From Nannochloropsis salina CCMP1776 (taxonomy: Eukaryota > Sar > Eustigmatophyceae > Eustigmatales > Monodopsidaceae), in contig SDOX01000008.1 of the NCBI GenBank assembly GCA_004565275.1, positions 9,014 to 56,478 on the forward strand: DNA of 47,465 nt. The letters run 5' to 3'. Below the pieces are notes generated by a model. That model was not told the origin of the DNA, searched no databases, and worked only from the letters and a program-made list of their open reading frames with translations. Made by a program: the position numbers and the translations under genes. The stretch's first letter is position 1. Each line of letters opens with the position of its first letter. Below are positions 16,261 to 46,800 of the stretch, piece by piece.

Positions 16261-17727
16261 TCATCTTGCAGCAAGAGTCACAATCACTCCCCAGGCGCAT
16301 GGAACCATCTTGATACCACCCTTGATCGGCTGCCTTCCATCTTCATGAATTTTCTCTTTCGAAACTCTGCCTGGTGCAGCGCCGTCGGGAAGCCAGATCG
16401 AGCACTGTACCGTGTGCGCGATCTTCGAGAGAACGCTTTTGCCCATCGCTTCAAGGACGACGCCATTATCCGTCAAGTCCAGCCACTCACTCAGATGACG
16501 GCCTATCAGGGGGCTTCTGACACCTTGAGTGGACACTGGATGCAACATGGTCTCTGCTTCCGCGTTGGCATACAGAATGCGCCCTCCTGCCTCGTACGAA
16601 AGCAAAAACATGGCAACTGGCGCCGCCTCTACCATTGCCTTGAAGACTTGAAGCCTTTCGAACTCCCTACATTCCTCTTCCTCCTTCATACGCTGCCGCT
16701 CGCGCGCCAATGCACTATATGTACGTGCCCGAGCCTTCTTGAAAGCAAGTTGTTCTTCAACTGGCATCGTGGAATAATCAATGTTAGGCCTTCGCTTCCT
16801 CTTCTTCTCTGACGCATCTGGAAGTCCACGTGCATCTTCACCTTTCACTTTCAAGTGGGCCCTAGACGCGCCGCTCCTTCTTGTGCTAGCCGATGCCGTG
16901 TCCTCACTGCCACGTTTATCAATCGACAGGGTGTAAGGCTTCAAGGCCGCTGAAAACTGGGTCATTCGGCCTGGTGCGAAGCTATCCGGACCGGTAGGAC
17001 TGATTCGTCCGGCCCCCGTGGGCAAGTTCATTTCTAAATGAGATCCAGGAGCCCGCCTTGCCATAGCTTCAGTCTTTTTGCAGTCACTCAGGTAGCTCTG
17101 ATCGCCTGGAAAAACTGACCCGAATTTAGGCGTGGGGACGTCCACCTCGTTCATCATGGACGAGGTAGAGGACAAAGGAGACGAAGACGATGATGCTTGC
17201 GAGGAGGTGCTGCACGACGAGAAAGATGAAGAGGAAGAAGAAGACAGGTATCTGATGTTTGTCCGTAAACGGTGAGAGTTGTCACCCTGATCGTGCCCAG
17301 AAGTTTGAGTGTCGATGTCCCAAGCTGGGCATGACTTCAAACCATCAGCAGTGAGCTGCTGCCAGGGACCAGTAGAGGCAGCGTTCAGGCTCTTTGGAAC
17401 GTATGTGGGAGCACCCTTCCCTGTATCGATGGACGCTCTTCCTGAGCATCTCTGCCGAGGCTCCTCATCGCGTTCTCTTCCGTTTTCATCTTCCCCCGGA
17501 GTATCCGACGTGTTGCACGCATTGTTACCGGATGGCGGCCCTGCTAACGACGATTCAGGAATCGACGTTTCCGAGGATGTGCTCTGACCTTGCGATGAAC
17601 GACATGTCTTTATCTTACCAGCGGCCTTTATAAGCGACAAGAAGCCACTCAACTTTTGTCGGCTGATGTTACTGGGAGCCGGACCGGAGATGGTAGAGTC
17701 TGTACGTGTCGTTTCCAAGAAAGACAT
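16261..17727 (-). CDS. bZIP-like basic region plus PAS domain protein
   Basis: An uninterrupted 488-aa frame from the ATG at 17727. The N-terminal 300 residues are Ser/Thr-rich and look disordered, with a Ser-run region near 165-190. KKRKRRPNIDYSTM starts a basic region (about 300-350) that continues as KKARARTYSALARERQR. This resembles a stramenopile bZIP basic region, but the canonical Asn is absent and the following helix is too short for a full leucine zipper. Residues about 362-488 form a PAS domain (AAPVAMFLLSYEAGGRILYA to the C-terminal GVIVTLAAR). I see no LOV photoreceptor motif (NCRFLQ with its flavin-binding Cys), so this is not a functional aureochrome. Expected role: a nuclear regulator that may sense a small molecule or dimerise through PAS. 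Unlike its neighbours it has no introns and no CCCT repeats. It lies within the zinc-cluster array on the opposite strand. Confidence 0.7.
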   Translation of the reverse strand: MSFLETTRTDSTISGPAPSNISRQKLSGFLSLIKAAGKIKTCRSSQGQSTSSETSIPESSLAGPPSGNNACNTSDTPGEDENGRERDEEPRQRCSGRASIDTGKGAPTYVPKSLNAASTGPWQQLTADGLKSCPAWDIDTQTSGHDQGDNSHRLRTNIRYLSSSSSSSFSSCSTSSQASSSSSPLSSTSSMMNEVDVPTPKFGSVFPGDQSYLSDCKKTEAMARRAPGSHLEMNLPTGAGRISPTGPDSFAPGRMTQFSAALKPYTLSIDKRGSEDTASASTRRSGASRAHLKVKGEDARGLPDASEKKRKRRPNIDYSTMPVEEQLAFKKARARTYSALARERQRMKEEEECREFERLQVFKAMVEAAPVAMFLLSYEAGGRILYANAEAETMLHPVSTQGVRSPLIGRHLSEWLDLTDNGVVLEAMGKSVLSKIAHTVQCSIWLPDGAAPGRVSKEKIHEDGRQPIKGGIKMVPCAWGVIVTLAAR

Positions 17728-20700
17728 TATTCTGTGTATGGCGTGAGCATGTGATAAGGCAAAGTGTGGGATTTAAAAGGGTTTCTCACTTTGAAATTAT
17801 GAAGACGGTACTTCGCGTTAGAACGGTGAAATGACGAAGCGCACCCGACGGAACGGTCAAATTCGCCAATTACCAAGGCAAGTTGTGCATGTGAATTTGG
17901 CACTAACTGAGCGCGACTTAAGTGCTCTTAGATGATGGCCATTCCGTCCGGCCTGGCAAAGACTGGAAAACAGAGGGCTTGGCCGCTGCCAAGCATGTGC
18001 TGTCAGAGGAGAACTTTCTGAAGCAGACGGGGTCTACCTGTTCGACTGAATATTCAGCGTTCGAGATGCGATCGGCCCCGGGCGAATTCACCCGAAAACG
18101 ACGGGGACTAAAAATGAATCTTACTATATTTTTCTCCCAACCTCGACAATGATACCAGTCGCTTCGCAAAGCAGCCACTTTGAGTGTAGTCACCTGCATG
18201 TATACAAAAAAACACAACACATATTGAACTGTGTGTGCCACATTTTGGTTGGCAGGCAAGGAAGGAGACTCGGCATTTCTCATGTCATTCTCGGGAGTTT
18301 ATATCTTGTCGTAGGACTTCTCGCAGCCACCTGTAGGGTGAATACCATGATCTTTCAAATAGAGACAGAACGGAACCTATCCTAGGTCAGATGACTTTCA
18401 GATGGTGGCTATACATGCATAGCGGGAGAAATAAGCTTTTAGCACGTTTCATGGACATCTCTCTTCTGAATGGAGATTGACGACAACGCAAGGCTCGAGA
18501 ACAACGCATTGCGTGGACAGCACCAAATGTGTCATGTCGGATCTCAGATCGAATCTTCCTAACATAGCGGCAGAAGATGTACCACGATGCACTTTGAGTT
18601 GAATAGTTATCTCTTGAAGATGCGACACCCAGGTTTGGGAGCACTGTGAGCACACTTCTTCATCTTTTGCCGTTCAACATGCTCCCCCATCTTGGCGCGT
18701 AGTGGGCTTAATTCGATATGGGCCAGAGAAACATCAGGAAAGAGCTTATTGTTCGATCCATGCGCGTAAATTTTGCTTCTAAAAGAAGATTATGGACGTG
18801 ATAAGGTTGGGAGAACTATTAGAAGAGCGAGTGACATGAGGAGACAGCACCGCAAAGTGGTCAGCGGTTGAAAGATGCGTCGACAAAGGGAGAAGTGCCA
18901 TGCTGGCATCACCTGATTTCTTTCTCGTGAAATTCTCGATCAAATTATGTTGCCTAATATGAAAGCAAGATCGCATGTACATTACAAATCGTAGTGAAAA
19001 TGACAAGGAAACTTGATGATAGATTGCGCAGAGAAGAGCGGCTCTCAGAAAGGCGAAGAACTTCTCTGTGCTTACATAGAGGGTGCTTCAAGCTTGCCTT
19101 GTTGATTCGCAATTCGAAATTTGATGCGATTCATTTTAAATGGGGTGTCATTATCTTCAAACTCAACCTGCAGCTGGATGCGTAGGAGGCGAAGTGAAGT
19201 AGGAGCGAAGCTGGCTCCTTGAGATATCGTAGTGTCGTGTAGCATCATAAAGCGCCATTTAAACACATTACAGCAAACGAAACTTGAAACAATCTCTTTC
19301 GTTCCTGGAGAGGGATTATGTCTGGACGTAGAAGCAATGAAGAAAAGAGTTGGCAGACACAAGGCTGGGGTGGACACACCAGAAAGGGTAGAGAAAGACA
19401 AAATAAAGGGGATAATAATGGGAGTTTAAGATTGAGAACTGTTAAGTGTCCGTCTATCAGCACCTGAAGAGAGGAGGAAGCGAAGAAATGGTCCAACGGC
19501 GGGCAGCCTGATCGTCTTCCCCTCAAATTTCGCGAGGCGAACAAACACTCAGATTTCTGGAGGCGAACGTTGGCCTTGCCCCTCAAGTTGACACGCAGAA
19601 AAAGACAGTTAGATATTACCGCTAACAGTGCTGTCGAAAGCCGCTGAATCACGTCTTCACCTCGAGAGCATGGTTGGACCTTACTGGCGATTCTCAATAA
19701 CCCATTTGGCGTCTATGCCCTCGCGTCTGACTTCTCTTTTCCCGTTAGGCTTTATACCACTCAAAGCATCATCGTCTTTCTTCTCTTCCTCCTCTTCTTC
19801 TTTCTCTTAAATTAGAGCAATCGTTTTTTATACAGGGTCGCAGATGAAAAAATGCCACCGCCCATTCAGGTATGATCTTTCCTCTGCTCTCTTCTTTGCC
19901 ATACGCCCTTTTCCTCTACTGCCATTCCGTTCCTCTATGCGCTTTTACGACTACTTTTCCACTACCTTCCGATCTTTTGCTTGCCACAAAGGTTTCACTC
20001 AAAGGTCAGTTTCGTACTTCTTTTACCCCTCGCTCCGTATCTTTCGTGTCTACATGCCTTCATAGGGAAGACAAGACACGTCGACTAGGAACAAGCGTTT
20101 ATCGCTTCCTATTTATTTTTCATTCATTACTTCGATGAAATGTGCTATCCTGTATTTTTCTGTGTCTCGCAAACCTCCCTCCCTTCCTTCTGTCCATACC
20201 TCCTCGGTCCCCTCTTTTGTGTCCTCATTTTTGCTAATAGAGCCCCCTCCAGTGTATGTGTCATCATTACGGTAATCTCGGCATCGACTGTAACAGAAAT
20301 ATGCACCCTTAGCCGCGGCAACCTTTGTGTCATACAAATGCATGCTATACCGCATAGGCTTGAAAGCCACCAGGTCTGGAAATTCCACACGGGAACTAGC
20401 AATGAAGTAAAGCGCAAATACTGCCACTCCTTACAAGTACTGCGTCTTTTTTATTGTTTATTGCATTTCCTAGCTCTATCCCACTGGCTGAGGAGACATT
20501 GGAAGTACGATAAGCTCCTAATTGAGGGAGCCAGATTATAATTAAGGTAGCCAGATTATTGCACTTCCTTCCTTCTTTTCTGGCTGTATCTCAATCAAAT
20601 GGTGGGTCGTTCTGAAGCTGGAAGAGAGCATGAATAAGATTCTTTAGAAAAAGAAACCGGCTCACAAAACGGATAATAGATGAGGGGCTTGTGCCCTTCA

Positions 20701-33432: not shown

Positions 33433-36400
33433 TTACATAACATGATCTTCTATCACCGCCGCCGCCTCCTCTTTCTTCATCTCCTCCTCAGTTTCCTCAT
33501 CCTCCTCCCACCCACTTCGAACACCAAAACTGCTCGCCTCCCTCCTAAACACCCGTTGCATCATTCCCCCCTCCTTCCCGCCCTCTTTCGGCACCGCCTT
33601 CTCCACCCGCTCCCCGCCGTCCACAAGCTCGATCACATGCATCCTACGCTCCTTCCTTTGGTGGGCGAGTGCCTGGTCCCATTGCACGACCCTGGGCCGC
33701 AAGTACCTCTTGTAGGCCTCGGAAAGGAGGAGGAAGACCAGAACCGACCCCAGGACCAAGCCCCACTCCCAGTCGATGGGCGCCTGGTAGAAGACTTTGT
33801 CGTGGACGTAGGGGATGTAGAAGGTCGGGAGGAGGGTGAAGACGCCCAGACCCACGGCCAGGGCGAGAGGCTTGTTGTTCCTGGCGGGGTGGGAGGGACG
33901 GGGGAAGGGACAGGGGAGAGGAGAAGACGACACCGAGGGGGGTGAGATGGAGGATAGGCGACATGTATGATAGCGGTCCACGCGGAAAGAGAAAGTGGGC
34001 TTTTAGAACAGTAGTCTGCATCGACCAAGTCTTCCACTCTTAACAACATGTAGGACATACGACACAAAAGTCTCTCGGCACCTCGCTGTCGGCCTTTGCA
34101 ACCCCAACACACGTACTTGTACTTCACTCTCCTGAGCGACCGGGCGAGATCCTTGCAATTGTACGCGTGGAGGAGGAGGAGTAAGGTTGTAGAGGCGAAA
34201 CAGGCGGCCCGTGCTCGGAAAATATGTTCACATTCCGGGGTCAACGTCAAATTGCAGCCGCTCGTGTGCTGAACCCCATCTCCGTCCACGAAGGCGACGA
34301 TGAGGAAGTTCGTGATGGATAAGACCCCGATCAAAAAGCCGTACAAGGAGATGTCGACCAGGAGCGTCGGGTTTCGCAGAAGTCGGCCTTTCTCGACCGG
34401 ATCCTTCTGCATGCTGTCCACCTCTGGCGGCTCGCAGGCGAGGCCCAGAGCCTGGGGGTGGCAAGGAGAGAGGGAGGGAGGGAGGGAGGGGAGGGAGGGA
34501 GGGGTGGATAGGAAGAGGCGTGAGGATGAATGATAAGGGCGCAGGCGAAGACAGAGAAAGAAAGAAAGGAAACAGGGGAGGAAGGGAGGAAGGGAGGGAG
34601 GGAGGGTAGGGAGGAAAGGGGTGTACCGGTGGCGTGGAGGTGATCATGTTGATCCACAAGATTTGTAGCGTCGAGAGAGGGTAGACACTTCGGCCGTCCA
34701 TGCCGCGAAAGGACAAGCCGATCATAAGGATGATGACTTCGCCCACATTCCCACTCATCAAATGGCAGACGAATTTGACCACGTTGGTGCCGATCCGCCG
34801 GCCTTCCTCCACTGCGTGCTCGATGGTCGCAAAGTGATCGTCCATGATGATAATGTCTGCGGCTTTTTTGGTCACGTCGCTTCCGCACTTCCCCATGGCA
34901 ATGCCCACGTCCGCGGCCCGCAAGGACGGCGCGTCGTTCACACCGTCACCTGAAGGAAGGGAGGGAGGGAGGGAGGGAGGGGGGGGAGGGAGGAACGAGA
35001 GAATAAGCATGTCAGAGGCAGGGACGTGGGTAGGCCGGTGCCCCCCCGGCCCATTCTTCCTCTCGCCCTCTTATCTTTCCTTTGTTCCTCCCTCCCCACC
35101 TGTCATCGCCACGATCCTCCCACGCCGGTGCAAGGCCTTGATGAGTTTGACCTTGGTCCCGGGGGAACAACGCGCCACCACGGCGGGGAGGAATGGCATG
35201 TTGTCCAGGGCCTCGTCTGACAAGTGGTCAAAGTGGCCTGAGGTCATGACGATGTTGCCCCCCTCTTTCCCCCCCTCGGCCCGGTTTTTTAAGATGTTCA
35301 CTTGTTTCGCCAAGGCCGCCGCCGTCTGTGGGTGGTCGCCCGTGACCATGCGTACGGTAATGCCTGCCTCCCGACAAGTCTGAACCGCGCCCGGAGTGTC
35401 CCTTCGCGGGGGGTCTTGCAACCCGACAAAGCCCAAAAACACCAATCCTTTCTCCAATTCCTCCCGGCCTCCGTCTCCGTCCGCCCGCGCGTAGTTGAGC
35501 ACGGCGCCCTTTTCCTCGTCGGAAATGACTCGGGTGGCGAACGCCAAGACCCGCAGACCCCGCTGGGCCATTAAATCCACCCGGTATTGCATGACTTCGT
35601 CGCAGAAATCGTTGACTTTCACGTGTTCAATCAGTTGGTCCCGTCCGTCCACACGAATGTGGCTGCAGAGCGGGTACACGCTTTCAAACGCCCCCTTTGT
35701 GTACATGGTCATCTCCCCTTCCTCCTTACGGCCCTTGTCCCCTCCCATGCGGTTTCGAAGCGGGTTGAGTCGGTAGACTACGGACATGCGTTTCAGGATG
35801 GAATCGAAGCACATTTCCGTGATGAATTCGTGCCCGCGCTCCTTGATCAGCAGAGCCTTGTCTGTGGCAGAGGGGGAAGGCGGGAAGTGGAGGAGGAGGA
35901 AGGGAGGGAGGGAGACGTCAAAGGAGTCTGGTCTTCAATCAAAGCAAGGAGAAGAAGGCAGTAAGAGAGGGAGGGAGGGAGGGAGGAAGGGAGGGAGGGA
36001 GGGAGGGAGGACGTACCGAGGCGGGCTTTCTTGGCGAGGACGGTAAGGGCCACCTCGGTGGCATCCCCAACCCCATACCACTCGCCGTCACACTCCACCA
36101 AGGTGCTGCTATTGCAGAGGGAGGAGACCTTGATGAGCGCGGACAGGGCCGGCATGAAGGAGACGGAAGAGAGCTTCTCCAGCGCCATCATGTTTCCTTC
36201 CCGCCCGCTCACAAACATGGCCCCCACGGGTTCGAGTCCGTGCCCGGTCACAAAAACTTTGGCGTCCCGGGGGAGCCATATGTCAGCGGCCACCATTTTG
36301 CTGAGGGTTAAGGTGCCGGTCTTGTCCGAACAGATGTCGGTGACCGTGCCTGGGGACGGTGGGGAAAATGGAGGGAGGGAGGGAAGGAGGGAGGGAAGGA

Positions 36401-38958
36401 GGGAGGGAAGAGGAAGAATAATGTCATACACTGAGGGATCTCTTTAGCCTACGGAGGGAGGGAGGGAGGGAGGGAGGGAGGGAGGGAGCGGTCGTCTACC
36501 GCCCTTCGTACCTAGGGCCTCCAACGCCGTCAAGCGTCGGACGAAGGTGTTCGCCGCCGCCAGCCGTTTCACGCCGATCGCCATGGTCAAGGTGACGACA
36601 CTCACCAGCGACTCCGGAATCATGGCCACCGCCAACGCGGTGGCGTAAAGGATCGTCTCGTAGTCAGCTTCGAACCCGTTTGCGGCCCACACGACGACGC
36701 CCAAGACCAAAGCGAACAGGAAGAGACCCAGGGCGAGTTTTTCCAATTGTTTCTGCAGCTGGGTCCTCCCAGCCGGGCGTTCGCCGATGGAATGCGCGAC
36801 TTTCCCAAGCTCGGTATGCATGCCCGTGGCCACCACCACCCCTGTCGCGCGTCCCCGCGCCACCACACAACCGAAAAAAGCCATATTCTTCCGTTCCATC
36901 AAGGTGGGTTCCAGACCACGATGGCAATGGGAGAGGGTGTGCTCGTTTTTGTTCACCACGTGCGACTCCCCAGTCAACAGGCCTTCGTCTGAGGCGAATG
37001 CCACGCAGGTAACAAGCCGACAGTCGGCGGGGATTTGATCTGGGCCACCGAGGGAGGGAAGGAGGGTGAGAGAAGGGAGGGGGCCGCCAGCACGAGAAAC
37101 ATCGTCGTGGAAGGAAAAGGGAAAAATGCAGGGTGGTCGAGCAATCACATGGCGAATGCTCGGGACTTGGAGGGAGAGAGAGACAGGAAAGGAGGGGGGG
37201 GGGAGGAAAGTGCAGATGAGAGGCCGGTGTTTCTCGTACCTCCCGTGTCGAGGTAGATGACGTCCCCTGGGACCAGAAGGTCGGCATTCAAGTGTTGCAG
37301 ATGTCCGTCCCGCAAGACTCGTGCGTTGGGCGAAGAAAGCCGGCGTAGGGCTTTGATGGTTTTTTCCGAGCTGGCAGGATGAAGGGGGAAAGGAGGGGTA
37401 AAGGTTAGGGCGGGGAAAAGGGATAGGCAAGGGGCAAGGAGGGAGGCAATGTGAGGACAACACGGGAAAAGGAAGCTGCCTGCGCACGAAAAAAGCGCCA
37501 GCATAAATAGAGAGGCATGAAAAATAAGGGCACGCCCCGCAAGAAAGGGAAGAAAAGAGGGTAGTTTCGTGCCGGCCTGACATTACCTGTACGCTTGAGT
37601 GAACCCGATCACGGCGTTGACCAAAATGACGACTCCCAGCACGGAGGCCATCAGGTACTCGGAAACGGCCAGGGCGAGGGCGAAGGCAATGAAGAGGATC
37701 AGAGTCATGAAGTTGAAGAGGTGATGGATGAACAGGAAGATCTGTGGGGTGGGGAATGGGATGGAGGGAGGGAGGGAGGGAGGGCAAGGGGGAAGGAGGG
37801 GAGGAGGGAGGGCAAGGTGAGTCCCCAGCGTCTTGATAAGGGCGAGAAGAAAAGCATGCACCAATCGCCTCTACAATCCTTCAAGAGAAAAAAGATGCCT
37901 CCTTGTTTGAAATTCATGTATCTCCCATTAACATGCAGGCAGAGGCAAATACCCCGGGGCGAAGCAGGCTATGGCCGGCCACCACCAAAAACAGTTTTAA
38001 CAACATAGAAGACAGTACAGAGAAATCCTATGAAACATACTGCGAGAGTCTAAACGCTTGGCACCAGGAAGGCAGGAAAGCCTAGAGAAACCAAGGGTGG
38101 TCAGGCCAACCTCTTCCGGACCACAGTATCGGACAACATTCGAAATCGACAATCACGCGCCGAGGGAGGCCAGAACACAAAGACCTCATAATGAAAGACA
38201 GGCATCGAAACATGCCTTTTTCAGCAACGCAACAAAGGACTGGGAGAGAACGGGACCTTGCGTCCGAAAAACACCGCGGGGGGGTAGCAGCAGGCAAAGA
38301 TAGTGATACAACATCCCCCCTCCTCGTCTCTTCTTGGGCGACTCACCGGGTGCAACGATCGCCGTCCTTTGAGCGTGTTCTTCCCGCACAACCCTCGTCG
38401 TCTGTCTGCTTCCTGAGAAGTCAAGCCTTCCTGCAAGTTGGCTTTGTAAAAGGCCACCACGTCGTCGCCTTTAATCATGTAAGGGGCCGCCATGAGCATC
38501 CCCGTGAATTCCAACACACTTGTCGCCTTCTGCACCTTCACTTGCACCATTTCTTCATGTTCTGGTACTGGCATAGGACGAGGCGTGGTTGCTCGCCCAT
38601 CCGATGAGCCTGAGGCTGTTGTATCACTCCCCCATGTCTTGACCGAAGGGCTTCGCCCGGGGGCTTTAGGGGTAGGAAGACCCAAATGTCCTCCTTTGCT
38701 CTTGGAACCAATGCGGAGTAAAGATAAAATATCTTTTCCATCCTTGGTAACCTCTAAAGGCGCTAGCCGCCTGGGCGGAGGCATGGGTGAGGAACCGAAG
38801 GATGAAGGATGTGGTGTTGCTGATAATGCTTGTTGGTGAGCTGTACTTGTGACTGCGTGATATTGGGATGGGAAAACGTCTTGAGCAATAAGCACACTCG
38901 ACGTCACTGTATGACAACTAAGCACATAGCTAGAAAGGCAAGTAAGAATACAAACCAT
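33433..38958 (-). CDS. ENA-type (P-type IID) alkali-cation ATPase
   Basis: Nine predicted exons (38958-38347, 37741-37587, 37370-37240, 37039-36512, 36349-36017, 35861-35100, 34949-34627, 34451-34117, 33880-33433) agree in phase throughout and give 1208 aa. It shows the P-type actuator motif LLTGES, the transmembrane-4 PES segment, the phosphorylation motif ICSDKTGTLT (Asp near 483), RMVTGDHPQTA and the hinge MTGDGVNDAPSL (near 840). Details that point to the fungal/bryophyte/protist ENA (IID) exporters rather than Ca2+ pumps are FDHLSDEALDNMPFLPAVVA, ARCSPGTKVKLIKALHRR, YPLSTLQILWINMITSTPPA and the ending FYIPYVHDKVFYQAPIDWEW. ENA pumps export Na+ or K+ across the plasma membrane at high pH or salt. 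The N-terminus is about 100 residues longer than usual, Ser/Pro-rich, and a later start at 38784 is possible; the tail is acidic. Introns carry CCCT repeats on the coding strand. Confidence 0.9.
34460..34503 (+). repeat. GGGA repeat in ATPase intron
   Basis: Tandem GGGA on the plus strand (CCCT on the coding strand) within the intron between the seventh and eighth ATPase exons. It forms part of the polypyrimidine tract before the acceptor. Confidence 0.85.
36453..36488 (+). repeat. GGGA repeat, about nine units, in ATPase intron
   Basis: A pure GGGA tract on the plus strand in the intron between the fourth and fifth ATPase exons, next to the donor of the fourth. Other copies lie at about 34593, 34961, 35968 and 36372. 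Runs of GGG at this spacing can form G-quadruplexes. Confidence 0.9.
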
Positions 38959-39791
38959 CTTCAAACGATCATTTGACGGGGTTTTCTTGAAATTAGGACA
39001 CGCGCCTCGAGAACAGCGGGTCTCAGATCTCTAGATCGATAACGGAGCACCCTAGGCAACAGCCCCTCCGCCTAACCCCCAAAAGAAAAAGCTGTGGTCA
39101 ACATTGCCGTCTCGAACAACTCGCATACGGCTACGTCCTTGAGTACATGCGTCTTATGCGAGGTACATACTTGGCAGCGGCACGGCGTGTTTTTCTCATG
39201 TATTGCCTTTTGAGGAAGAGATACACACGTACGTCACATCGGAAGTACAGAAAGATACTTGCATGCAAACAGCAGAAACAACTCTCAGCGGCACTTGGGA
39301 TTCTCCCATTGCAAACTATGCAAAGCTTCATGTCAATAGCCAAAAGTAAGATGAAGGGGCCTTGAAAACTTTGGGCAAGGTCGCAATTCTAGTGGGATAG
39401 GTCCAATTGAAAAAGTCGTCGTAAACATCTCCTCCGGGTATGCTTGTGGACTCCCCGAGTTGCTTTGCCCGAACTACCATTACCTATGCTTTTACTTCCC
39501 CGTCCATCCTGGTTTGATAGGCTTTGAGCTCTTCTCTGCTCAATCATTTCCCGCGTGTACATTGTGCTGTGTCGATAAACGTGGAGACAGCCGACTCTTA
39601 GACTTCATACCTACCCTGCATTATTTCACCAACTTTCCGCTACTCTTGAGCAACCCTTCTCGAGCTTTTCAGCACAATATGTGGATAAAGAAACAACTGT
39701 GTCCATCTTGGTCTCTACGCAAATTAAAGTTTGAGTCGGTAACAATGATGACGACGACGCACAGAGATGACAAACTTTTCGACTTACAGCA
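38959..39791. other. Short intergenic region
   Basis: About 0.83 kb between the start of the ATPase and the 3' end of the methyltransferase-riboflavin kinase gene, both on the minus strand. It should hold the ATPase promoter. No gene or motif recognised. Confidence 0.6.
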
Positions 39792-41947
39792 TTACCTGGG
39801 ACCCCACTCCTCAAACGGCACCCACCTCCCTTTCCCCTTCGACGCTTCATTTCCTCTCTCCTCTTCCCTTGTGCCCTCCCCTTCTTCCTCTACCAATCGC
39901 CTCGCCCCTGCATACACAGGCAAGTCCATCGCCACCCTGGCGTCTTCCACGTCTTGCTGGATAGCTGCTACTAAGGCAGGAAAGCTCGGAAATTTCTGCT
40001 CGGGCCGTAGAAACCCTGTGAGAATCAATGTCATTGTCTCCCCGTAGAAATCTCCGGGAAAAGCGCCGTCAATCAAATGCGCCTCTACAATCTTCTCCTT
40101 GTTCTCCTCCCCCTGGAATGTAGGGGAATACCCAATATTCACCACTGCCTTACACTCACGCCCAACTACACGAGCCCAACCGCAATAGACACCCACGGGA
40201 ACATCTTCTATGAGCGATTTGACGACGAAAAGCGAGGATGGGAGGTTGGCGGTGGGGAAGCCCAGTTTTTTGCTTCCGCGTTTGTATCCTTGACTGACTG
40301 GTCCCTGGAGGAGGAGCGCCTGAGGGAGGGGTTGATCAGACCGACGGCAAAGGAGGGCGAGGTAGAGGGAAGATGTAGACTGCAGCGAGGTAAGCTGAAA
40401 GGGTGTTGTGACCAGAATGTCCTGGAAGAAGGAGCAGGGCAAAAAGGGAAAGGAGGGAATGGTTGGGAGCAGGGAAAGGAAAGACAAGGAACGACCCCGT
40501 AACCACATGTCATCCCTCTGCCTTCTTTCCCTCCTTCCCGCCCTCCCTCCGTCTCTCCCTCCGTCTCTCCCCTCCTTCCCTACCCTCCACGCCTTTTCGT
40601 CCCTGGGAAGGTCCGCGAGCACGACGGAGGGGGAACGCCGCCTCAATTCTTCCACGAAATCGGCACCTAAAGGATGAGAAATGACTACCCGGCCGCCTTT
40701 TTTGACCAGCTTGCCCACTTCCCGGAGGGCTCGTGCCTGGTCAAAGACGTTTCCAAAGCAGGCGTTGAAAAACACGGCGGTGAACAGCCCTTCCTCCTTC
40801 CCCCCCTCCCGCTTGTATATCATGGGGAGATCAAGAACGTCCCCCTGCCAAAAAGACGCACGCGGAAACCTCTCCCTCGCCACCACCAACATGCCCGCAG
40901 AGAGATCCACCCCGACAATGCGCTTCTCTCCGGCGTTCTCGTCCAGGTAGGGAAGGAGGAATGGGAGGAGGGCCCCGGTGCCTGTGCCCACGTCGAGGAC
41001 ACGATCGGTGGGACGGAGGGCAGCAGCCTCGGCGATACGTCGGAGACGAGGGATGACGTCTTCAGGGGTCGCTTCCTCGCTGGAAAAAAATCTGCGGGGG
41101 GGAAATAAGCCGGTCAAAGTACCAGTATAGGCGCACTTGTCAGTTTCTTATGCTAAGGTGCAGTCCTATTCATAGATGCTTCGTACTTCTTCCTTCCCAC
41201 ATGGCTGCTCCACTTTCCTTTCTTTTCCTCTCGTTTCTGTCCCTTACGCACTTTTTTCAACACGTGCTCCGCAAGTTTACCCAAGCATTTTCAAATCATT
41301 CTTCTCTACGATCACTTACTGCGCTGCTTCGTCAAATACACTTGCTTGCTTCTCATTGTGGGAAGCCCGTCGCTTTTCCTCCTCCGCCGAGTCCTTTTCC
41401 CATACCGTCGACGAAGCAGCGCGCCCTTCAAATGAGTCATGCATGCCGTACACTTTCTCCTTGTGGAAATCCAAAGATTCCGACGATTGCCACACCAGCA
41501 TCCTCCGCGAATGGTAGTCATGTACGAGGCTGCTAGTGGTATGAAACGGTGGTCTTGTGCAATGTAAAATTTGACAATAAAGTCAGATGCTTTTTTAATG
41601 GTCAGCATGCATCGTTTGAGTATATGGTCAAAATGACCATACCCTGACTTTGCACCGATTTATGTGAGGCAAGCGCTGAAAGCTGAGCCAGGAGGTTAGG
41701 AGTCTCACCTGCTAGTTTGACTTCCCAAAAGAGAGTGCGACGACGACATTGGGGGGCCCCATGCAAATGCAAGGGATGGTTGGCAGTTTAATGAGGCCAG
41801 AAGGACAGCACATACAGCCGCGTAGGTCCTGAAGCAGCAAGAGGCAGATCGTGACGCGAAACTTGATGCACTAGACGGAAACAGAAGGGGAATGACGGTC
41901 TTGAAGGAGCCCTGTTTGTTCGCACAGAGACGCGGTAGACGACGCAT
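39792..41947 (-). CDS. Plastid-targeted SAM methyltransferase-riboflavin kinase fusion
   Basis: Four predicted exons (41947-41709, 41529-41320, 41091-40584, 40421-39792) fit in phase and give 528 aa. Residues 1-65 look like a bipartite plastid leader: a basic start, a hydrophobic signal core (YAAVCAVLLASLNCQPSLA) and then FAWGPP, an Ala|Phe junction like the stramenopile ASAFAP motif. Residues about 150-320 form a class I methyltransferase with motif I VLDVGTGTGALLPFLL (181 on), VGVDLSAGMLVVARERFP, and QGDVLDLP. Residues about 348-490 are riboflavin kinase: GPVSQGYKRGSKKLGFPTAN binds the nucleotide, followed by GVYCGWARVV, VVNIGYSPTF, VEAHLID and GDFYGETMTLIL. This enzyme turns riboflavin and ATP into FMN. 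The methyltransferase substrate is unknown. The first join (41709 to 41529) is the least certain; without it translation could start at 41501, losing the leader. Confidence 0.8.
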
Positions 41948-43859
41948 ATCCCTAAAAATGTGACATTGTCTCCTCGTTATCAGTACAATTATCTTTATTC
42001 TGCGTGTTTGACGCACGTATTGAAACAAATCAGGTCAACGTGAGTTTGTTCGGTGGCAACAGCAACCAAAGAAAGGAGACGGCGACTTCAATTTGAAATC
42101 GCACAAAAAACCTCCTCTCTGTTTTTTGGGGGCATATTTCGCATGTGTAAAGAACTCTGGTAAACATTCATTGCCCCATTTTGGTAGGGAAAAAAAGAAT
42201 CATTCGGATTGCTAATGAGCTTTTCGCATGGAGACTTAGCTCGGAGACGTTTATTGACATTCGAGGGTATGGGGATGACACTTCGACACTCGTCTCCTTC
42301 TAAGGTTCCACCATTGCCTTCCCTTGATCTATGAGCCTTCAACCCCGCAGGAAGTTCTACAGAAAAAGACACGTCCATGTGGGTACCGGTATGTTTTGTT
42401 TCCAATTTTTCCCCCTCCCGATCAACTTACAAGTCTTTGTCACAATTTGATACATACTTCATAACTCGCGATGGACTGGCTGAAGACATGTCCGAATTCG
42501 GGTTACACATGATCTAAAGTGCGACCAAATATGACTCCCTAATATATGCTAGTCCTCTTCATTCCGCATCTCAAGCCTGGAGGGGTGCCCGTAAATTGGC
42601 CTTATCTGATTTTGGCATCATGTATTATACGTGTCCAGAGAATTTAATGATATTGCCCTTATTGACGACAGTGAATGGGCGCCATCCTATTTGTCCTCAA
42701 TGAATATGAAAACCAAAGCAGATGTTACAGAATGTAAACCTTGAGCAATAAAAAACTCCTGGGCCTAAGTTGCAACGTCGCTCTAAGTGAGTAGATCACC
42801 GAGAAATATCGGTTGCTTCTCCCCAAGCGGGCACAGAACGACTACATATATATATTTAGACGTTGACGATTGACAACATCACGAGTGAGATTACTTGTGC
42901 GAAAAATTAAGCCCTCTACAACCGAACTCTCGGTGTAAAAATTCATAATTGAGGCTAATTTTTGTCGTAAACAGATTATGCGTGCCGTGTTCTGGATATT
43001 AAGAGGAGCGTTTATTGATGAGAACCATCAGTAATCTGTTTCGTTGGCAAATTACCCCAAATTCTGAAACTTAAGCGCCTCCCAGGAATAACGAGTAGAA
43101 GTTGTGATGTTCATTTTTTTCCCATGGAACTTGTACATTGGCAAAAATAGGGGAGAGAACATCAGTGGTTCCCTACCACGTCTTTGTTTGTACGGAAATA
43201 TGCAATGGACGACTGAAGCATCGCGCGCATGTTGAAGGTTGAATATGAAAGCTTCGTGTCGAGGCACATTGTATGAAAAAAGGGCATCGTATGTACAATA
43301 TGGTGGCATTCGACATCAAAATGTTTTATTTGGTACAAAAAATATTCGAAAACAAAAAATTGTGATTGTTCACTTATCTTGTCGAGAGACGCTGTTGAGT
43401 AGCTTGCGATGTCGGGTATGTCTTGAGCTTAAGGAAAGATATATCCATGAAGGGAGGGAGGTTTTGACTTTTCATTCAAAAAGTCTGCCCTCCTCAAAAA
43501 TTCTACTTCTCATCAAAACGCAATATCTTTGCACACCTTATCCTATTAAAATATAGGGAAAGCGTGCATTTTGTCAAGCGTTAAGGGGGAAACCTTAAAG
43601 TTTCTTTTTTTTTTTAACGGCCGGCCGTTGGGGGCCCATATGACGATGATTACAGGAGCCTCAGTACCTCGAGAAGATAACTGGTCTGAGTAGAAGGAAG
43701 CATTTTCATGATCAGACTTCCATCACGTCCTCATTTTTGCCAAATTACATTCTTTCAAGCATCGCGCATTCCACAGGTTCCTCATAAGAAGCCTACGAGG
43801 TTGATCTTAGCCTGCGAATTGCAAAACTAAGCGCGAGCGTCTCGTGATCGAGCATCTCG
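41948..43859. other. Intergenic region between divergent genes
   Basis: About 1.9 kb separating the starts of the methyltransferase-riboflavin kinase gene and the potassium channel. A minus frame at 42088-42378 (ATG at 42378, about 96 codons, opening MDVSFSVELPAGLKAHRSRE) has protein-like composition but no recognised family. The rest is AT-rich with short chance frames. Confidence 0.45.
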
Positions 43860-46800
43860 ATGAAAGCCCCTGGAAAGCCTTTCCATGCCCGATTTGCAAA
43901 CGTGCCACCGTCCGTCAATACTCCAAATTCTACAACAAGCACGACTAGCATCAATTATGACGTAGCGTCCTCGCCCGTGCGTCTGAATGCATTCGCTTCC
44001 CGACTCGCCACCTCGTCCACCGTGGCATCTTCTTCCAAACGCATCGCTTTTTTACCCTTTGTACAACGCTTGGAGCGCGTTATCTTCCAAGGGATTCCAC
44101 CAACCTACCCTTTGCGTGCCAAGATGAAGATCACCCTGGACACCACCTCCTTTGGCATGGCTTGGGATATTTTCCAGTCTCTGGCCAGCCTACTTTCATG
44201 CATCACTTATGTGGCCTCCACATACCATTACATCTTTCCTCTTTTTCTGCAATGGACGCTTACGATAATATTTTCCTGCGAGCTTCTACTGCGCTACTAC
44301 ATCTCGGAGAATCGATGGGCCCACACCTTTGAATTCTTCACCCTGATAGACTTGTTGACCGTCCTTCCCATGTATATTCAATTTATCGTCGCACACACGG
44401 GAACGCCCATGGCGGGCCACAGATCCCTCTTCTTCCTCCGCTTTGCCCGCACCATGAACATCATGCGGATCGTCCGGACCTTCCGTTTCGGTGGGGTCCG
44501 GCGGATGCCGAAATCCACCCGACAGTGCTCCATTTTGGGCCTCACGGTCGTCTCACTCGTCTTTCTCTCTGCGGGCTTGGTGCAGTTGGTCGAGCGGGAT
44601 TTGACGTTTGGGAGGGCAGTGTACTTTATGATCGTGACCATGAGCACGGTTGGCTACGGGGACATCCATCCCACCAGGTATGCTGACTTTTCCTCCCTCC
44701 TGCCCTCCCTCCCTCCCTGCCTCTCTCCTTCTCTTCCTTCCTCACGACCTCAGTCCAATATTCCTTTACATCAAGTCATCATCTGTCCCTCTATCAACCT
44801 CTTTGCCGATGTCACAGAATGAGAAGCCAACTTCCGTAACAAGCTCTCCACTCTGTTTCTCCCCCCCTCCTTCTTTCCCTCCCTCCCTCCCTCGCTCTTT
44901 CCCGCCCTCCCTCCCCTTCCAGCCCCATGGGCCAGCTGGTCGTCTCCCTGATCATCGTCACATGCTGGGTGCTGGTGCCCTACGAAATTTCAAAACTCTT
45001 CGCCGTACTCTCCACCCGATCCCGCTACCGTACCTCTCTTCCCCGCCATCGCCAGGCGCACCGACAGCGGAAGCACGTCCTGGTCCTAGGTGAGGGGGAG
45101 AAGGAGGGAGGGAGGGAGCGAGGGAGGGTGGAATGGGTCGTCATGACGGGGTGGGAGAAGCCCATTTGGATCAAGGTAGCCCTCATGACGACCATTTTAG
45201 GACCCAAATTACAAGTAGACCCTCCACAGGCCCCATCTAACCTCCATCTGCATTCCTCGTCTTTTTCCATCCCCCCCCTCCCTCCTTCCCTTCCTCCTCC
45301 TCCCTCCTCCGTCCTTCTCCGCTCCTTTCCTTCTTTCCGGATTCCACAAGGGAAGTGCAAGACGTTTTCCGCCTGCAGCAGTGTTTTCACGCGACGGATT
45401 TTATCACCCCGGAATCGACCTGCGTGCTCCGTCGGATCCGTCTGGTCGTTGGGGGCCCAAATGAGCCCGTTCGAGAACTGAAAAGGTGTGACCCCCTCCC
45501 CCTCTTGCTCCTCCTTCCTCCGTCCTCCCGTCTTTCCTCCGTTTCCTCGTCGCCTCTTTCGGCTACCTCCTCCTCCTCCTTCCTACTCTGGCTCTTCCTC
45601 CCTTACTTTCTCTTCCCTCTCCTCCTCTTCCTCCTCCTTCCTCTCCCTCCTTTCTCCTTCCTGCCTTCCTGTCTCCCACCGTCCTTTCCTGCCTCCTCCT
45701 CCTTCCCTTCTCCTTCTCCTCCTCCTTTCCTCCCTTTTCCTTATCGTCTGCTTTCCTCCATTCCTTTCCTTTCCATTCGCGCCCGCGCCGTCTTTCTCAT
45801 CCCTCTCCTCCTTCCCCTTCCTCCTCCTCCTCCTCCTCCTTCCCCCAGAGCTCATGCTCCACCCCGTGCTGGAAGGCCTCGCGTCTCCTACATCAAAGCC
45901 TCCGTGCTCAAAGAACAACGACCTGACCGTCCCTCGCCGCCGAAGAAGCCCGGGCGGCTTTCGTCCTCTCCCAACTGGTTGAAGCGGCATCCCTGGGGAG
46001 ATGGACTCGAAGGCCAATCGTCCGCACCATCATGCTCAACAACTACTGCCCCCGGCTGCCCCTGTCTATGTCCAGCTTTCCGAACCTCAGTCTACCTTCC
46101 ACAGCTTTCGCTCTCTTCAGTCCTGGATCCTTTCCCTCCTTCCTCCTGCCTCCTCCCCTTTCTCCTCCTGCCTCCTTCCTTGCTCTTTTATCGTTCCTCT
46201 TGTATTCTCCTGATTTATTGTAATCATTGCGCATGCAAACCAATGCCCACTTTCTTCTCTTCCTCCCTCCTCCTCCCTCCTCCTCATCTCCTCCCTCTCC
46301 TCCTCCCCTCCTCCTCCAGAAACAACCAACGTCTCTGCGGGCCGACTCCCTGAAAATGACCCATCCTAGGGCTCTCTGTCGCCCACCCGGGAAGCAGCAA
46401 CTCTCCTCATCAACCTCCTTCACCTCCTCCACCGTCCCCGAGCCGCCTCTTGCAGCCCAGGAGGAGGTGGAGGCGGAGGGCGGGGGGAGGGCGGGGAGGG
46501 AGGGGCTGGTTGCCCTTATACAATCGCAGGGGACCAACTAATAATTTTACGTGGAAGATATGCCCGTCTGCGTCCGAGGCACGAGCCTTTCTGGACGCGG
46601 TGATTACCTTGTACGAGTGGGACCGAGGGCCGGGTGCTGTTGTGGGGGGTCGAGGAGGAAAGGCGGGAGGGAGGAGGGAGGGAGGAGGGAGGGAGGAGGG
46701 AGGAGGGAGGGCGCGGCGACCGGCTCTTTTTGCAACCCAGGCCCCCACTATGTCCTGCCAATGAGTGAGGAGGAGGGAGGGAGGGAGAGAGGGAAAGAAG

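Follow-up and report, generated by a model that had tools for sequence, protein, structure and literature searches.

A riboflavin kinase fused to a class I SAM methyltransferase behind a putative plastid leader in an algal gene

Structure of the fusion gene

A class I SAM methyltransferase and a complete riboflavin kinase are encoded in one gene on the minus strand of the window, the 47,465-nucleotide stretch of DNA that was analysed. Splicing of the exons at 41947-41709, 41553-41320, 41091-40584, and 40421-39792 gave a 537-aa protein without interruption, closed by a TAA at 39792, in which a leader is followed by the methyltransferase (residues 135-353), a short linker, and the kinase (residues 362-490). 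A preliminary description of this DNA had claimed a complete riboflavin kinase after a class I SAM methyltransferase in one spliced frame, and the coordinates, the frame, and both domains agree with that claim. The sequence itself shows the two domains, the integrity of their motifs, and their joining in one exon, and the fusion of methyltransferase and kinase in one gene is confirmed as far as sequence can tell.

All three introns of the gene begin with GT and end with AG, with lengths of 155, 228, and 162 nt. Exon 1 (41709-41947, minus strand) opens with an ATG, has an open frame, and encodes the leader MRRLPRL...SLA/FAWGPP...SQTS (the slash marks the junction discussed below); it ends in phase 2 at AG/GTGAGA. 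A homologue of exon 1 was looked for and none was found, and we infer the assignment of this exon. Exon 2 (41320-41553, minus strand), assigned from its splice sites and containing the start of the bacterial-family profile match at residue 135, contributes a transit-peptide-like stretch and the first approximately 23 residues of methyltransferase homology. By frame arithmetic, the AG sites ending at 41554, 41533, 41530, and 41503 are all in frame, and the alternative 5' edges of exon 2 are 41532, 41529, and 41502. The 5' end of the gene is therefore less sure than the rest, with frame and splice signals as the sole basis of the join between exons 1 and 2.

The removal of intron 2 (41092-41319, minus strand; GTAAGT...CCCGCAG) unites two parts of the homology to bacterial proteins. 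Exon 3 (40584-41091, minus strand) encodes the main body of the methyltransferase, including VLDVGTGTG, FFNACFGN, and ISHPLG, as indicated by Pfam, the bacterial relatives, and AlphaFold. Intron 3 (40422-40583, minus strand; GTAGGG...TTCTTCCAG) is in phase 0, and its sequence is low-complexity and purine-rich. Because its 162 nt are a multiple of three and free of stop codons, the frame is open with or without its removal, and an open frame of 451 codons (451 aa) runs from 41147 to 39792 on the minus strand. If intron 3 were retained, the product would still contain the kinase, but its methyltransferase would be interrupted by 54 extra residues. Exon 4 (39792-40421, minus strand), assigned from Pfam, human RFK, the family profile, and pLDDT, encodes the final two methyltransferase strands (spliced residues 335-342 and 347-353), the linker, the kinase, a short charged tail, and the TAA. 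The end of the profile match and the Flavokinase match are 8 residues apart (354-361).

Methyltransferase and kinase in one protein

The 451-aa frame matched the Pfam Flavokinase model (113 bits, frame residues 277-405). It also matched several models for class I methyltransferases, among which Methyltransf_31 had the best E-value (51.1 bits, frame residues 47-169). In an alignment with 17 bacterial frames, the spliced protein matched from exon 2 through exon 3 and on to the final strand of the homology in exon 4 (...SLYLALLCRR). For a methyltransferase family profile, only the 14 bacterial rows of alignment A2 were used, with the window row excluded. This profile scored 203.5 bits against the spliced protein (residues 135-353, profile positions 7-211 of 213), 195.7 bits against exons 1 to 3 alone, and 174.1 bits against the unspliced frame, where the match broke off at frame residue 186, immediately ahead of the retained intron 3. 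When the first 30 residues of exon 4 were shuffled, none of 50 shuffles reached 203.5 bits (maximum, 199.2; mean, 195.5). The gain from exon 4 in the spliced protein is modest (about 8 bits), and exon 4 alone gave no significant match to the profile (-2.2 bits).

The AlphaFold prediction for the read-through frame (17 rows) had a mean pLDDT of 59 and a pTM of 0.52 overall. Block means were 72 to 95 over frame residues 21-180 and 52 for residues 181-190, and the 54-aa translation of intron 3 (frame residues 189-242) mostly overlapped a segment with a pLDDT below 50 (185-238). The strands encoded by exon 4 (frame residues 250-257 and 262-268) lie in blocks with a mean pLDDT of 92 to 93; in our reading of the model, they complete the methyltransferase sheet. 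The kinase part was poorly modelled (block means of 25 to 63), and the alignment contained no other kinase row.

These results bear on the reading that the region holds two separate genes, with transcripts that end and restart near 40584/40421. The low-complexity, purine-rich sequence of intron 3 would be in keeping with such a break, but the last strands of the methyltransferase lie in exon 4 with the kinase, so that a split at this point would truncate the methyltransferase. Likewise, if the kinase started within exon 4, the remaining methyltransferase would be truncated, and the 451-aa frame is open throughout. We regard two separate genes as extremely improbable and ruled them out, because the methyltransferase homology and the predicted fold both extend into exon 4. 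This also contradicts the case that the preliminary description had named against its own claim, namely, separate proteins split at 40421/40584. A misassembly or a chance frame was ruled out as well, since each domain is nearly complete and exon 4 carries, unbroken, the last part of the methyltransferase and the whole kinase domain.

Kinase domain and other flavin genes of the genome

The kinase half of the fusion scored 113 bits against the Pfam riboflavin kinase model (PF01687; cut-off, 19.6 bits), covering profile positions 4-122 of 124, and its domain matched human RFK with 102 bits over 134 query residues. PTAN at residue 383 and EAHLI at residue 440 were aligned with PTAN and METH of the human enzyme, and we take the Glu of EAHLI (440) to be the catalytic Glu of riboflavin kinase. 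PTAN is named as a conserved motif of riboflavin kinases in the excerpted text of PMC2972280. The kinase of the fusion is of the eukaryotic type and, judging from these motifs, looks active.

One other kinase gene was found in the genome, on contig C57, and its product is 43% identical to the fusion kinase over 135 columns. In our model of this gene, which has three exons with GT/AG sites picked by eye and a start ATG of our choosing, there is no evident leader. Among nine frames near it, no Pfam domain besides Flavokinase was seen at an E value of ≤0.01, and the C57 kinase is apparently stand-alone.

A FAD_syn domain (PF06574, RibF type) was found neither in the fusion frame nor, in an exon-by-exon search at an E value of ≤0.001, anywhere in the genome; the same search gave matches in 10 of 14 control genomes. 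Eukaryotic FAD synthases have the fold of the PAPS_reduct-type domain, and the genome gave five matches to such domains, with any FAD synthase counted together with other members. A PsbO-type match was present in the same intron-bearing genome, a sign of a photosynthetic eukaryote.

Other genes of riboflavin biosynthesis were also seen in this genome (G000). A fusion on contig C35 (L096:1-2097) has GTP cyclohydrolase II (174-340) first and DHBP synthase (501-692) second, which is the reverse of the order given for ochrophytes in an excerpt of PMC5462543. For lumazine synthase, the main gene is on contig C72, and a second, weaker lumazine-synthase-like match of 46.9 bits lies at G000:C57:414462-414782 (L090).

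Methyltransferase family and its relatives

The N-terminal half was recognized as a class I SAM methyltransferase by the SAM-binding loop VLDVGTGTG and by matches above the cut-offs to Methyltransf_31, Methyltransf_25, Methyltransf_11, Methyltransf_23, and Methyltransf_12, and the AlphaFold core agrees. In the alignment with the bacterial frames, the VLDVGTGTG, GVDLS, FFNACFGN, and ISHPLG blocks are all kept, including their invariant columns. A search of bacterial and archaeal genomes with the exon 3 region gave at least 80 loci. The eight best among the matches listed were 40 to 47% identical and were titled Melainabacteria, Obscuribacter or Obscuribacterales, and once Cyanobacteria. Melainabacteria are non-photosynthetic relatives of cyanobacteria. 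As judged from these searches, the methyltransferase belongs to a little-known bacterial family that is best matched, among the matches listed, in Obscuribacterales/Melainabacteria.

In three bacterial genomes, the family member scored 269 to 314 bits and other methyltransferases at most 46 bits, the three members being rows of the profile used; by these scores, the family is set apart from other methyltransferases. No second copy was seen in the algal genome, where the next match reached only 27.5 bits. In an even draw of 244 genomes from the phylum of genome G001, with at most 12 candidates scored per genome, only one matched at an E value of ≤1e-25, and this was G001 itself, a row of the profile; genome kinship is not given for this draw, and several known family members evidently lie outside it. 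Since only G001 matched, the methyltransferase seems not to be widespread in that phylum, and an origin from the plastid ancestor is, weakly, not supported. In a tree of 22 rows, the fusion stands in an open fork with Melainabacteria rows, and 9 of the 19 inner branches are open, with several long branches. We therefore do not claim a transfer from Melainabacteria. A search of viral contigs for relatives of the methyltransferase and a search for relatives of the kinase part gave none that was confirmed.

In alignment A1 (16 rows), the Obscuribacterales/Melainabacteria methyltransferases (e.g., L006 and L010) have 31 to 42% identity with the window frame, and identity by tblastn segment reaches 47% among the matches listed; they share the motifs and the C-terminal end of the fusion's methyltransferase. 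The 17 bacterial frames are 210 to 284 aa long and end soon after the methyltransferase homology, with no fused domain visible, unlike the algal protein. In a profile search of solved structures, the top matches were phosphoethanolamine N-methyltransferases (PDB 5wp4 and 5wp5; 68.7 bits), among the best 60 of 174 matches, with the resemblance limited to the SAM-binding core. A fold search gave 987 PDB chains at an E value of ≤0.001, and the best 50 of these 987 were mostly methyltransferases of many different small-molecule types. Because only the core was matched in the first search and many different small-molecule methyltransferases in the second, the substrate is not readable from the structure matches.

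The neighbors of the bacterial relatives were scanned in 10 frames from 8 loci, chosen from 13 loci. A formiminotransferase-cyclodeaminase was found in five of the eight loci and an M50B-like peptidase in the other three, and of two further frames, one encodes an EamA-like transporter and one had no match. No riboflavin gene was seen among the 10 frames from the 8 loci; we thus deduce no substrate from the neighbors, which give no pointer to flavins. A formiminotransferase-cyclodeaminase gene is nearby and oppositely oriented in loci L006, L007, L013, L016, and L018.

The methyltransferase half could have ceased to be an enzyme and act as a scaffold or a SAM-sensing regulator of the kinase. 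Fused flavin enzymes of plants often lose one activity, such as the pyrophosphatase of AtFADS1 and the kinase part of AtRibF1/2 (excerpt of PMC9678776). However, the retention of all four blocks (VLDVGTGTG, GVDLS, FFNACFGN, and ISHPLG) argues for an enzyme, and we consider such a loss rather unlikely.

Leader sequence and possible plastid targeting

The leader consists of an N-region of about 40 residues, a hydrophobic core at about residues 40-54, and an Ala/Phe junction, SLA/FAW, at residues 58-63 (SLA/FAWGPP). If exon 2 starts at 41553, a following stretch of 37 residues includes 12 Ser or Thr, 3 Lys or Arg, and 1 Asp or Glu. According to an excerpt of PMC5462543, the N-terminal domain of ochrophyte plastid leaders is variable, spans 30 to 50 residues, and contains an ASAFAP-type motif; with its junction at about residue 60, the fusion leader would be long in comparison with this set. 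As a control, all 137 frames in the window that start with M and reach at least 70 aa were scored, the fusion's included. A fraction of 0.117 (about 16) of the 137 frames were as hydrophobic as the fusion leader, and six passed when hydrophobicity was combined with a loose cleavage motif, that is, the fusion leader and 5 of the 136 others.

The fusion could be real but cytosolic, either by a start at the ATG at 41501 or because exon 1 lies outside the main transcript, and plastid FMN synthesis would then not follow. This ATG (MLVWQSSESL...) is in frame in exon 2, upstream of the homology, and a start there would yield a leaderless protein; moreover, exon 1 has no known homologue, and the leader is only modestly unusual, given the five other frames that pass. 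Against this, the core in exon 1 is followed by Ala/Phe and, with exon 2, by a Ser/Thr-rich stretch across an in-frame GT-AG join, like the ochrophyte plastid leaders described in the excerpt of PMC5462543. We regard a cytosolic fusion as unlikely, if well worth keeping in view, and plastid targeting of the fusion protein as fairly probable; the plastid leader is plausible but weak. The preliminary description had proposed a plastid leader with an Ala/Phe junction. The SLA/FAW junction and the transit-like stretch are indeed present, whereas plastid targeting is not established in view of the 5 of 136 other frames and the ATG at 41501. The lumazine synthase gene gave a cleaner example than the fusion leader, with an Ala/Phe leader, MVRLPTIVAVACLLQGIAAFVTPRP, in a frame just upstream of the frame that holds the domain, the two being taken unspliced.

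Comparison with known systems and proposed function

The kinase domain resembles that of the monofunctional enzymes of human (RFK, PDB 1nb0) and S. pombe (PDB 1n05), with PTAN and the catalytic-Glu region, but here it forms the C-terminal portion of a longer chain that begins with a leader and a methyltransferase. The plant protein AtFMN/FHy consists of a HAD-type FMN hydrolase followed by a riboflavin kinase. It likewise comes from a photosynthetic eukaryote and carries an additional enzyme domain on a eukaryotic-type kinase (excerpts of PMC9678776 and PMC2972280); however, its partner domain is the HAD hydrolase rather than a SAM methyltransferase, and it is described as cytosolic (excerpt of PMC9678776). 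No HAD domain was matched by the fusion frame among the 12 families listed at an E value of ≤1. Bacterial RibF and the plastidial AtRibF1/2 have a kinase-type domain at the C terminus, as here, but FAD_syn was not found in the fusion or elsewhere in the genome, and AtRibF1/2 are without kinase activity, whereas the fusion kinase keeps PTAN (for AtRibF1/2, excerpt of PMC9678776).

Kinase fusions of the RibF type in bacteria and of the HAD-kinase type in plants are described in excerpts of PMC9678776 and PMC2972280, and most eukaryotic kinases are monofunctional (658 of 755; PMC2972280, excerpt). In ochrophytes, chimeric plastid proteins have been reported, some with prokaryotic and eukaryotic modules (PMC5462543, excerpt). 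Against this background, the gene combines domains of known enzyme types in a new way and is not a new kind of system. The pairing of methyltransferase and riboflavin kinase had been called unfamiliar, and we agree: none was met in the literature searched, which has most subscription papers outside it. The methyltransferase partner is new to us, and its nearest relatives were found in non-photosynthetic relatives of cyanobacteria.

As a whole, we lean slightly towards the following explanation. A single nuclear gene would give one chain with two enzymes, in which the C-terminal domain would be a working eukaryotic-type riboflavin kinase that forms FMN from riboflavin and ATP, and the N-terminal domain would be a working SAM-dependent methyltransferase of the little-known bacterial family. 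The two-part leader probably brings about import into the plastid, the likely site of riboflavin synthesis; the fusion would then be the FMN-forming enzyme of the plastid. We infer a division of labor in which the stand-alone kinase on contig C57 would serve the cytosol. The fusion would mainly co-deliver the two enzymes rather than channel a substrate; co-delivery is the simplest reason for it, and functional coupling is possible. That flavin supply might be linked to a methylation step, as the preliminary description suggested, is a conjecture. In a bolder form to which we give little credence, the missing FMN-forming enzyme of the plastid would be a laterally acquired Melainabacteria-like methyltransferase joined to a duplicated host kinase, and the methyltransferase would have as its substrate either a flavin or a compound formed in an FMN-dependent step of the plastid, physically coupling FMN supply to methylation.

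According to PMC9678776 (2022, excerpt), experiments support the formation of FMN in plant plastids "by as yet unidentified enzymes." The kinase half is therefore a useful lead whatever the methyltransferase does, and a riboflavin kinase with its own putative plastid leader would be a concrete algal candidate that makes the question testable. Conservation of the fusion among related algae would be a pointer to the function of the methyltransferase; the fusion might also be private to one species and would then be a curiosity.

Neighboring genes in the window

Just downstream of the fusion gene and on the same strand, positions 33633-39030 (minus strand) hold an apparent cation-transporting P-type ATPase in several exons, with Pfam matches in the order N-terminus, E1-E2, Cation_ATPase/Hydrolase, and C-terminal. 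Upstream and in the opposite direction, a frame at 43848-44822 (plus strand) has the ion-channel matches Ion_trans and Ion_trans_2. Elsewhere in the window, a 503-aa frame at 16261-17772 (minus strand) has a PAS-type domain match.
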